This document shows positions 9,604 to 12,441 of a DNA stretch of 64,000 nucleotides, in pieces. Every line of letters starts with the position of its first letter. Position 1 is the first letter of the stretch. This DNA comes from Micromonospora inyonensis (GTDB lineage Bacteria > Actinomycetota > Actinomycetes > Mycobacteriales > Micromonosporaceae): contig NZ_FMHU01000001.1 in NCBI RefSeq assembly GCF_900091415.1, positions 2,666,001 through 2,730,000 on the forward strand. Direction: 5' to 3'. A program made the position numbers and the translations under genes. Below the pieces are notes generated by a model. That model was not told where the DNA came from and did no database searches. It worked only from the letters and a program-made list of their open reading frames with translations.

Positions 9604-10062
9604 GCCGACGACGACCGCCGCCCGGCGGACCCGGAGCGTCGCCCGCGACGCGCCGTGGACCCCGCGTCCCACCGGGCGCGGGGCCGGGGCCGGCCGGGGT
9701 GCGCGCAGGGGGCACACATCCCGGCCGGCGTCCCCGGACACCGTGCCCGCAGCCATCTGCGGGCCGGGCCGGGCACCCGGGCCCGAACGGGTCCGCGTCG
9801 CCCCTCCGGTGGAGGCGACCACGACCATCGAACCCGTCGCCGACCAGGATGTTCGTCCACTGCTCGATTGAGATCCATCTTCGCCTCTAGCCGGAACGGG
9901 CGCGGCGACGCTAGCGTCTAGTCATGGCGCGGGGTTCTCCCGGGCCAGCCGGCCAGCCCGGATCTGCGACCTCGCGCACGGGGCCCGCATCCGACCCCGT
10001 GTCCCCGGGCACCGGAGGAGGCGGAACGCGGGTGGCGGGTGCCCATCCGTCGGAGCAGGCCT
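9604..10062. other. Intergenic stretch of 459 bp upstream of the PhoH-like gene
   Basis: It holds no convincing gene. It contains a TAGCGT hexamer (9912-9917) 6 nt before an ATG at 9924. That ATG opens a frame running out of phase through the PhoH-like gene, so the hexamer is more likely the promoter of the PhoH-like gene with a 5' leader of about 140 nt. A short local C-T-A-G-rich spot flanks it. Nothing else is recognisable. Confidence 0.5.
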
Positions 10063-11469
10063 GTGACGACTCGTCGTACCCCCGCCGGTGGCGATCAGAC
10101 CCCGGCCGCGACCACGAACACCCGCCGGACGACCCGGAGCCGCCGTGCGGCGACGGGCGCCGCCGAGCCCGGGGAGCCCCGACCAGAGGTCTTCGTCCTG
10201 GACACCTCGGTCCTGCTCTCCGACCCTGCGGCGTTCCACCGGTTCGCCGAACACGAGGTGGTCCTCCCCCTCGTGGTGATCTCCGAGTTGGAGGGCAAGC
10301 GGCACCATCCGGAACTCGGCTGGTTCGCCCGGCAGTCCCTCCGCATGCTCGACGAGCTGCGGATCACCCACGGCCGGTTGGACCACCCGGTGTCCGCCAA
10401 CGACGAGGGCGGCACGCTGCGGGTCGAGCTGAACCACACCGACTACAACGTCCTCCCGCCCGGCTTCCGGACCGAGTCCAACGACGCCCGGATCCTCGCC
10501 GTGGCGCTCAACCTGGCCGCCGAGGGGCGGCGGGTGACGCTGGTCAGCAAGGACATGCCGCTGCGGGTCAAGGCCGCCGCCGTCGGGCTGCGGGCCGACG
10601 AGTACCGGCACGGCCAGGCGAGCGACCCGACCTGGACGGGCATGGCCGAACTGGAGGTCGCCGAGGAGCAGATCGGCCAGCTGTACGGCGGTGAGACGCT
10701 CGACCTGGACGGCGCGGCCGGACTGCCCTGCCACACCGGTCTGCTGCTGCACTCGGGCAACGGCTCGGCCCTGGGCCGGGTCCTGCCGGACAAGACCGTA
10801 CGGCTGGTCCGGGGTGACCGGGACGCGTTCGGCCTGCGCGGACGCTCCGCGGAGCAGCGGATCGCCCTGGACCTGCTCCTCGACGAGTCGGTGGGGATCG
10901 TCTCGCTCGGTGGCCGGGCGGGCACCGGGAAGTCCGCCCTGGCCCTCTGCGCGGGCCTGGAGGCGGTGATGGAACGCCGCCGGCACAAGAAGGTGGTCGT
11001 GTTCCGGCCGCTCTACGCCGTGGGCGGTCAGGAGCTGGGCTACCTGCCGGGCTCGGAGGCGGAGAAGATGTCGCCCTGGGCGCAGGCGGTCTTCGACACC
11101 CTGGGCGCGGTGGTGCACGAGAACGTGCTGGAGGAGGTCACCTCCCGGGGCATGTTGGAGGTGCTGCCGCTGACCCACATCCGGGGGCGGAGCCTGCACG
11201 ACGCGTTCGTCATCGTGGACGAGGCACAGTCGCTGGAGCGGGGGGTGCTGCTCACCGTCCTCTCCCGGATCGGCCAGGGCTCCCGGGTGGTGCTCACGCA
11301 CGACGTCGCCCAGCGGGACAACCTCCGGGTGGGTCGGCACGACGGGGTGACCGCAGTGATCGAGGCGCTGAAGGGGCATCCCCTGTTCGCGCACGTCACG
11401 CTCAGCCGCTCGGAGCGGTCGCCGATCGCGGCGGTGGTGACGGACCTGTTGGAGGACATCCCGAGCTGA
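10063..11469 (+). CDS. PhoH-like protein: PIN ribonuclease domain fused to PhoH ATPase
   Basis: A 468-residue PhoH2-type protein. The N-terminal PIN domain carries the acidic nuclease residues: D47 in VFVLDTS, E75 in ISELEGK, D141 in ESNDARI and D164 in SKDMPLR. The C-terminal PhoH ATPase has Walker [10 protein letters not shown] (283-291) and Walker B VIVDEAQ (about 383-389). The mycobacterial homologue Rv1095 is an ATP-dependent RNA helicase/ribonuclease. GTG 10063 is chosen because a GGAGCAGG-like site precedes it; GTG 10039 is the alternative. The first 40 or so residues are low-complexity Arg/Thr-rich. The gene is followed by an AT-richer intergenic region rather than by an operon partner. 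Confidence 0.93.
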
Positions 11470-11491
11470 CTGCCGAGTAAAACCTATTTTG

Positions 11492-11520
11492 CCACTATTT
11501 GCATAGTGGTGCAGATCACA
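11492..11520. promoter_or_regulatory. Inverted repeat and CRP-like site upstream of transglycosylase gene
   Basis: CCACTAT-TTGC-ATAGTGG (11492-11509) is a perfect inverted repeat in a locally AT-rich spot. It could serve as a PhoH-gene terminator or an operator. Overlapping it, AGTG-N8-CACA (11505-11520) matches the spacing of actinobacterial CRP sites, with a perfect TCACA half. CRP-family regulators control rpf-type wall enzymes in other actinobacteria, so the match is suggestive only. Confidence 0.4.
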
Positions 11521-11551
11521 TTTGCGGCGTGTGGTTTCCCAACGGCCCCAC

Positions 11552-11746
11552 GGTGCGCGATGGTGTCCCACGAGCGCCCGCGCACCAGAAAGATCGTTGG
11601 TGATCATTCGTCACAGGGGCCGGGGATCACCGGCCCACGGTGCCGGCGGTGACCGGCACGGTCGGGGCGCTCACGGCGCGGGTCCGCCCGGTGCTGACCG
11701 GGATCGGCCGCGCCGTGTCCTTGCCCCCGACGAAGGGACCTCTTCG
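11552..11746 (+). promoter_or_regulatory. Highly structured 5' leader (candidate riboregulator) of the transglycosylase gene
   Basis: Consecutive perfect stems are visible. The first is 11552-11559 with 11579-11586 (8 bp). The second is 11617-11623 with 11630-11636 (7 bp, 6-nt loop), and the third 11640-11646 with 11653-11659 (7 bp, 6-nt loop). A three-tier hairpin follows: 11661-11667 with 11725-11731, 11672-11680 with 11709-11717, and 11688-11692 with 11697-11701. The last is a small hairpin, 11731-11735 with 11742-11746, that encloses the ribosome site and the first base of the start codon. An alternative stem, 11599-11605 with 11625-11631, is incompatible with the second hairpin. The layout suggests a switch. 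I do not see the conserved motifs of the c-di-AMP (ydaO) riboswitch. Confidence 0.5.
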
Positions 11747-12441
11747 TGAGTCGGCTGTGGAGCCGGTTGGGTGCCCGAACCGCCGCTGTCGCGTTGCTCT
11801 CCGTGGGTGTCGCCGGCGGCTTCTACCTGGGCGAAGACCGCCAGACCCGGCCATCGGACGCGACCGCGCAGGTCGGCCGGGTCGAGATCGAGCAGTCGCG
11901 GTACGCGCAGACCGAGCACGTCGTCGAGTCCGCGAGATACCAGACCGAGCTGCGGTCCGCGCAACGGGCCGAGGCCGCCGCCGAGCTGGCCGCCCGCAAG
12001 GCGGCCGCCGAGCGCGCGGCCCGCAAGAAGCGCGAGGCCGAGGCGAAGGCCAAGGCGGCGGCCGAGGAGGCCGCCCGGAAGGCGGCGGAGAAGACCTCCA
12101 AGCCGTACGACGGCCCGATCCCCGCCTCGTGCAGCGAGTACAGCGGCAACCGGAAGATCGGCTGCGCCATGCTGGTCGACGCCGGCTTCGGCATGGACCA
12201 GATGCCCTGCCTGGACCGGCTCTGGAACAAGGAGAGCGGCTGGAACCACCAGGCCAGGAACCCCTCCTCCGGCGCGTACGGGATCCCGCAGGCGCTGCCG
12301 GGCAGCAAGATGGGCTCGGCCGGCGACGACTGGCAGACCAACCCGGCCACCCAGATCGAGTGGGGGCTCGGCTACATCAAGGGCCGGTACGGCACCCCGT
12401 GCAGGGCCTGGGCGCACTCCCAGGACACCGGCTGGTACTGA
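11746..12441 (+). CDS. Secreted/anchored transglycosylase-like protein
   Basis: A 231-residue envelope protein. Residues 1-28 form a signal anchor. Residues 60-120 are an Ala/Glu/Lys/Arg coiled coil. The C-terminal 110 residues resemble actinobacterial lytic-transglycosylase-like domains, with ESGWNHQARNPSSGAYGIPQALPGSKM providing the Glu and the S-G-A-Y-G-I-P-Q core and a TQIEWGLGYIKGRYGTPCRAW ending. Such enzymes cleave the glycan strands of peptidoglycan, with the catalytic Glu in KESGW. Cys residues around 133, 142, 156 and 220 may form disulfides. GTG 11746 has an AAGGGA site 7 nt upstream that lies inside a small hairpin, implying translational control. It is followed by a strong terminator. 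Confidence 0.85.
   Translation: MSRLWSRLGARTAAVALLSVGVAGGFYLGEDRQTRPSDATAQVGRVEIEQSRYAQTEHVVESARYQTELRSAQRAEAAAELAARKAAAERAARKKREAEAKAKAAAEEAARKAAEKTSKPYDGPIPASCSEYSGNRKIGCAMLVDAGFGMDQMPCLDRLWNKESGWNHQARNPSSGAYGIPQALPGSKMGSAGDDWQTNPATQIEWGLGYIKGRYGTPCRAWAHSQDTGWY

Follow-up and report, generated by a model that had tools for sequence, protein, structure and literature searches.

A predicted folded RNA, conserved in one bacterial family, in the leader of a presumed wall hydrolase gene of Micromonospora inyonensis

Introduction

Does the leader ahead of a presumed wall hydrolase gene of Micromonospora inyonensis form an RNA structure kept by selection, and might that structure bear on expression of the gene? 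A preliminary description of this DNA had proposed a structured cis-acting leader, a riboswitch or attenuator with mutually exclusive stems and a hidden ribosome site. The proposal is examined here by comparing the leaders of orthologous genes. Coordinates are positions in the window, the whole 64,000-nt stretch of DNA that was analysed.

Results

The wall gene and its neighbors

The genes that define the locus are:

10039..11469, + strand: PIN-PhoH gene (Pfam PF02562 and PF13638), upstream of the wall gene and a conserved neighbor
11746..12441, + strand: wall gene, encoding a 231-aa protein, with start codon GTG at 11746

Residues 152-231 of the wall protein match an aggregation-promoting-factor C-terminal-like domain (NCBIfam NF052397, E 2.9e-39). 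A Pfam search with the 231-aa protein returned no family at 1e-3, and a PDB sequence search nothing matching below E 0.07. The product is presumed to be a wall hydrolase, for which "transglycosylase" would be a reasonable provisional name. A rhomboid gene lies downstream. A search of 61 genomes found homologues of the wall protein in 47, among them every one of the 37 from the genus. The DNA of codons 3-7 (11752-11765, CGGCTGTGGAGCCG), which forms a 5-bp hairpin, is strongly conserved in most of the loci read.

Predicted promoter and 5' end of the transcript

Three elements upstream of the leader suggest where its transcript begins:

11506..11519, strand not given: CRP/GlxR-type palindrome, GTGGTGCAGATCAC (GTG-N8-CAC)
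11535..11540, + strand: putative -35-like hexamer TTTCCC, consistently spaced from the palindrome
11559..11564, + strand: putative -10-like hexamer GATGGT, at a constant offset from the palindrome

Of 102 distinct leaders, 100 carry the sequence GTGN7TCAC upstream. It corresponds to the GlxR motif, while the stricter Crp motif, GTGN6GNCAC, is fitted by 43 of 100 leaders (both motifs as given in passages of PMC10033298); the palindrome at 11506-11519 itself fits GTGN8CAC only. With the palindrome alone as anchor, 89 of 100 leaders have xAxxxT at exactly the offset of GATGGT, and 76 of 100 have TTTCCC, 18 nt ahead of the -10 element. This anchoring repeats the -10 count independently of an earlier placement whose search pattern contained the -10 element itself; the latter pattern underlies the placement of the P0 5' strand (see below), the 5' UTR estimates and the 43/100 count for the strict motif. 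In a distant relative (L182), TTGACA was seen by eye 18 nt before CAGGGT. A generic sigma-70 scan found no promoter-like site at this leader.

Together, the palindrome and core promoter elements predict a transcription start near 11571, outside the 11700-11746 interval where a start would have spoken against the preliminary description, and a 5' UTR of about 175 nt (29-237 nt across the leader set). The same prediction shortens the leader as originally drawn from 11552: positions 11552-11570 fall within the putative promoter, and the first of the proposed stems, which uses bases of the -10 region, would therefore be missing from the RNA. An upstream ORF starting at an ATG in the -10 element was rejected because it lies inside the predicted promoter and relatives read ATC or AGG at this point.

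A long-range helix at the 5' end

Comparison of the leaders brought out two helices, P0 and P2, that had escaped the preliminary description, as had a third, P0' (see below). P0 would join the extreme 5' end of the transcript to a strand about 90 nt downstream:

11572..11579, + strand: P0 5' strand, GAGCGCCC, a conserved motif just past the predicted start, at the transcript 5' end
11665..11672, + strand: P0 3' strand, GGGCGCTC, complementary to 11572-11579

An all-pairs covariation test on alignment A1 (61 distinct leaders from 69 leader-bearing loci; L069-L071 were dropped for their different context) had yielded nothing significant (best E 8.3) and was followed by the helix-level and register-level tests. 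For P0, the promoter served as anchor for the 5' strand and a P0-blind model as anchor for the 3' strand, in 99 distinct leaders from 109 loci (L150 and L167 have no placeable 5' strand). In register, 91.5% of cells are paired, against a maximum of 58.4% in 11 slid registers, and the covariation score is 1.89 against a maximum of 0.98; double-changed cells number 28, a figure equaled by one slid register. With the 5' strand placed at a constant distance from the -10 element, 93-96 of the 99 leaders are paired at each of five core positions. One pair is G-C in 82 leaders and A-U in 11. Its G statistic of 69.6 is the highest of 320 column pairs, the next being 27.8; 1 of 300 tree simulations reached this top pair and 2 of 300 reached the P0 diagonal. 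Another pair is A-U in 70 leaders, G-U in 14 and G-C in 12. When P0 3' strands were swapped between species, none of 5000 trials reached the observed score, either in the full set of 99 or separately within the 61 Micromonospora-type and 38 other-genera leaders. Independent double changes in P0 are few: no P0 pair has more than 3.0 branches with joint changes on its two sides, which is where the 95th percentile of background pairs lies.

RNAalifold, run unprompted on alignment A3, predicted P0 together with five P2 pairs. A3 comprises 43 of 62 distinct leaders, 19 near-duplicates and insertion-bearing subclades having been excluded. Pairing of P0 in A3 reaches 99.1%, a favorable figure because the excluded rows include the L016-like subclade, in which the outer pairs of P0 form only with a bulge; these rows are counted within the 99-leader set. 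For the A1 and A3 structures taken whole, 45 and 29 of 500 shuffles, respectively, attained the number of double-changed pairs, and 64 and 206 of 500 the number of further pair types.

P0 is absent or unrecognized in L148, L169, L171 and L172 and shifted by one base in L163. Among 10 distant loci tested, a P0-like stem better than shuffles at the 0.05 level was found in L180 alone (0.043); this is weak support, since about one such result is expected by chance in 10 tests and the stem had been seen by eye beforehand. Inspection by eye found no cross-genus conserved sequence inside P0 and, hence, no obvious ligand pocket.

A covarying hairpin next to P0

P2 follows P0 directly, with position 11672 common to the two helices:

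11672..11679, + strand: P2 5' strand, CACGGCGC
11710..11717, + strand: P2 3' strand, GCGCCGTG, pairing with 11672-11679

Over its eight pairs, P2 is 94.3% paired in A1, and six of the eight show changes on both sides. Its helix score of 2.57 compares with a maximum of 1.54 when 200 alignments were simulated on the tree and of 2.03 when columns were permuted 500 times. P2 also tops the helix list in 30 leaders from other genera, where none of 500 permutations reached it; these 30 are a selected set, since 10 of 40 leaders with a short or unrecognizable P2 were left out. Both P2 and P0 are lost in L169 and L171, and P2 but not P0 in L168; in all three the ribosome-site strand stays. In L151, a short direct repeat around CTCACGGCGTG adjoins P2. 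Taken together, the covariation of P0 and P2 exceeds the tree-aware, permutation and swap controls.

The ribosome-site strand and further helices

The remaining elements are:

11582..11586, + strand: P0' 5' strand, GCACC, pairing with 11639-11643
11639..11643, + strand: P0' 3' strand, GGTGC; the 5 bp were read off the sequence, the window's row being two columns off in A3
11662..11667, + strand: P1 5' strand, TCGGGG, overlapping the P0 3' strand at 11665-11667
11725..11730, + strand: P1 3' strand, CCCCGA, just before the Shine-Dalgarno (SD) sequence and overlapping the ribosome-site hairpin
11730..11735, + strand: 5' arm of the ribosome-site hairpin, ACGAAG, pairing with 11742-11747
11732..11738, + strand: Shine-Dalgarno-like GAAGGGA, a conserved sequence
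11742..11747, + strand: 3' arm of the ribosome-site hairpin, CTTCGT, which takes in the first two bases of the start codon

P0' has seven pairs in most relatives; in A3, 94.7% of its cells are paired and three of seven pairs show double-sided change, figures that have no control of their own. RNAalifold did not predict P0' from the 43 leaders of A3, and its support appears weaker than that of P0 and P2. Inside P0', a further hairpin seems common in Micromonospora (around 11594-11630 and in relatives, with CGYC...GRCG arms; A3, by eye).

The GGG/CCC core of P1 is paired in 97.3% of A1 cells with zero double-sided changes; by eye, the GGG is missing in several other genera. Likewise, the ribosome-site hairpin is paired in 98.1% of cells (61 leaders, A1) with zero double-sided changes; being nearly invariant, it is a helix on which covariation is silent. 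By eye, its loop is 5 to 7 bases long between constant arms, and it is broken in some genera (L138, L162). Conservation is also strong outside the helices (GUCCUUG[CU]CCCC), and the ribosome-site strand, CCUUGYCCCCGACGAAGGGA...CUUCGUGA, is retained even where other parts of the leader are gone. By eye, in L181 and L189 the arm complementary to the SD region CGACGAAG, CTTCGTCG/CTTCGT, precedes it rather than follows it, which may be an alternative means of masking the ribosome site.

Four other pairings were discarded. An anti-start stem between the GCUC strand before P2 and GAGU after the start codon, initially in the helix list, was dropped because GCUC is constant though codon 2 varies (AAG, AAT, ACT, ATC; by eye). 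An anti-SD pairing, UCCUU/AGGGA, is broken in genera with UCAUU (by eye). The CCGAC/GUCGG pairing around the start codon is invariant or, in several genera, broken, with no compensation seen, and helix Pa is only 64.8% paired.

The stems first described

All the pairings on which the preliminary description was built exist in the sequence: the 7-bp alternative stem GGTGATC (11599-11605) with GATCACC (11625-11631), the GGGCCGG/CCGGCCC hairpin at 11617-11636, TCACCG (11627-11632) with CGGTGA (11647-11652), and ACGAAG (11730-11735) with CTTCGT (11742-11747) around the ribosome site. The 11552-11760 segment also folds better than its composition predicts (z -3.89; 0 of 200 shuffles). The mutually exclusive stems did not hold up among relatives, being complete in 1-2 of 43 (A3) and thus mostly peculiar to the source genome. 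In A3, which is gappy in this region, the alternative stem has 7/7 pairs in 2 of 43 leaders and 5 or 6 in 22; the 11617-11636 stem has 7/7 pairs in one and 5 or 6 in two. For the first arm of the alternative stem, 4 of 43 leaders have a perfect 7-bp partner within reach. The comparison of orthologous leaders did uncover compensatory changes, in P0 and P2 and more weakly in P0', which support a structured cis-acting leader. The claim of a hidden ribosome site is not confirmed: the covering hairpin is present, but the site is only marginally less open than those of 25 starts in the window, its own included (SD, p = 0.02; start codon, p = 0.30; -18 to +6, p = 0.91).

Competition between P0 and P1

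P0 and P1 are mutually exclusive, both requiring 11665-11667. Ensemble folding of the window's own leader gives P0 a probability of 0.04 and P1 one of 0.74; among 91 leaders, P0 exceeds 0.5 in 41 and P1 in 23. The consequences of P0 formation were modeled in 88 of the 99 leaders by forcing or blocking the helix. Mean SD opening went from 0.440 (P0 blocked) to 0.406 (P0 forced), being lower in 57 of 88 leaders (p = 0.003). With P0 forced, CCGAC no longer paired with the GTCGGGG side upstream (0.256 to 0.000), and its pairing with codons 1-5 did not rise (0.270 versus 0.277, p = 0.63). Opening of the start codon showed no significant change (p = 0.13); in the window this codon was 0.46 unpaired when P0 was blocked and 0.36 when P0 was forced. 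A search of 11400-11800 for terminator-like sites found none. A translational switch is possible; thermodynamics alone lends it no support, since forced P0 has almost no effect on the SD and folding of the window favors P1 over P0. Of the original proposal, the structured leader stands; the riboswitch or protein-controlled attenuator remains a hypothesis, given the lack of a terminator-like site and the near absence of a predicted effect of P0 on the ribosome site.

Relation to known RNA classes

None of the 4227 families of Rfam 15 scored at gathering level in the window, and none matched at E<=0.5 in 20 diverse loci of the leader; three weak matches (E 3.2-8.4) fell far below gathering. The c-di-AMP riboswitch model RF00379 gave no match above gathering score at the leader, in agreement with the preliminary statement that this is not a ydaO element. 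The same model detects four copies elsewhere in the genome (68.9-91.1 bits; C1:1577675, C1:2086809, C2:378599 and C2:3205381) and therefore works in this genome. These positives, with the negative at the leader, make a c-di-AMP riboswitch identity very unlikely.

According to passages of PMC10117811, a ydaO riboswitch precedes rpfA and other wall hydrolase genes in Streptomyces, and according to passages of PMC5693915, rpfA and SCO5466 are Crp-dependent. As far as those passages go, the present leader resembles the Streptomyces rpfA ydaO leaders in being a structured 5' leader of a wall hydrolase gene under putative Crp-type control. It departs from them in lacking an RF00379 match and a terminator-like site, in having other helices and in being confined to one family. 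A limited search of the open-licence literature, by titles and abstract beginnings, found no description of this leader motif.

Distribution of the leader

Model R1 found one copy of the leader in the source genome. Among 150 genomes of the family, 80 have a match, and these represent 20 of 44 genera; G090 has two matches and each of the others one. Searching 200 genomes of the order gave matches in 24, all of the same family, and searching 296 of the class gave four: three of the genus and one outside the family (G409, 38 bits). The last was rejected as a chance match, none of the three neighbor genes lying beside it, so that neither search yielded an accepted case outside the family.

Other genera of the family account for 65 matches, of which 40 loci were fetched; the wall gene follows the leader in all 40, and the PIN-PhoH gene lies upstream in 39. 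The wall protein itself was found in 22 of 22 family genomes searched that have no R1 match. Twenty loci without the full element have short or different leaders, and PhoH is a neighbor in 18. The second copy in G090 (L150) is a wall gene with no PhoH upstream and a different, shortened leader with a local hairpin in the 5' motif. In genus g40 (L171, L179) the leader measures about 30 nt and the promoter stands almost directly before the ribosome-site strand.

Discussion

Helices that covary across species, and a constant 5' UTR position before one type of gene, mark the sequence ahead of GTG 11746 as a structured leader. On sequence evidence, we regard it as a conserved folded RNA kept in one bacterial family, and the best reading is that of a new candidate cis-acting RNA matching no Rfam family. 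Interspecies comparison supports P0, P2, a conserved ribosome-site hairpin and the incompatibility of P0 with P1 as its elements, and P0' more weakly; the promoter and start site, an action on translation or stability, and the direction of control are inferences. The leader probably affects the amount of enzyme made, and we put the probability that it acts on expression of the wall gene at about 0.5.

The CRP-type promoter would yield a transcript whose first bases (11572-11579) fold onto 11665-11672, P0 closing a 5' domain that encloses P0' and a variable interior. Hairpin P2 would come next, then the conserved strand (UCCUUGCCCCCGACGAAGGGA) carrying the ribosome site, which may itself form a short hairpin reaching over the start codon. 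P1, nearer the ribosome site, would compete with P0 for the same GGG bases. Such a leader would act at the RNA level, most likely on translation start, mRNA life or both, and the outcome would be production of the muralytic enzyme in the right amount.

It is quite conceivable that the leader senses nothing and constitutively stabilizes or insulates the message, P0 tying up the 5' end of the mRNA and P2 fixing the fold of the ribosome site, with regulation left to the CRP-type promoter. Such a role would suit the fixed distance of the P0 5' strand from the -10 element, a few bases from the predicted start, the variable P0 interior, the slight change that P0 makes to predicted ribosome-site access, and the restriction to a single gene and family. 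It sits less well with the strong conservation of GUCCUUG[CU]CCCC outside the helices and of the ribosome-site hairpin, with the incompatible P0 and P1 pairings, and with the weakness predicted for P0 in the window itself. Stem structures of the ompA type at the 5' terminus stabilize mRNA. P0 is like them a duplex at the extreme 5' end; unlike them, its partner strand is some 90 nt distant and borders on a further helix close to the ribosome site.

A more elaborate form of the cis-acting reading is doubtful: that the leader is a new riboswitch-like class of the Micromonosporaceae, in which a 5' sensor closed by P0 competes with the ribosome-proximal helix and times the hydrolase. A comparative-genomics survey has reportedly described candidate structured RNA motifs. 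The present leader is like those in its conservation, its covarying helices and its want of an assigned ligand, and unlike them in gene, in taxon and in having no Rfam match.

We consider it improbable that the leader is a binding site for a protein or small RNA (for example the PIN-PhoH protein or a translational repressor) that holds or opens the ribosome-site hairpin. Retention of the ribosome-site strand where the rest of the leader is lost would fit, as would the adjacency of PhoH in 39 of 40 loci; against it, PhoH also adjoins 18 of 20 loci that lack the full element. Still less credible is chance folding of GC-rich DNA, with all conservation owed to promoter, ribosome site and coding sequence: the last 176 nt have a GC content of 0.73, promoter and ribosome site make up much of what is conserved, and the all-pairs test was empty, but P0 and P2 covary beyond the tree-aware, permutation and swap controls. 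A divergent ydaO or other known riboswitch is the least likely of all, the type of gene and the Streptomyces parallels (passages of PMC10117811 and PMC5693915) being outweighed by the lack of any Rfam match in the window or 20 loci and by the four RF00379 detections elsewhere.

Enzymes that cut a bacterium's own wall must be timed. The layout proposed for this candidate cis-acting RNA has two layers and resembles the Streptomyces combination of Crp with a c-di-AMP riboswitch, here with a putative CRP-type site and an RNA outside Rfam. The leader supplies defined helices for mutation and probing. If the riboswitch-like class were real, it would answer a signal tied to the wall or to growth, besides transcriptional control of the Crp type.
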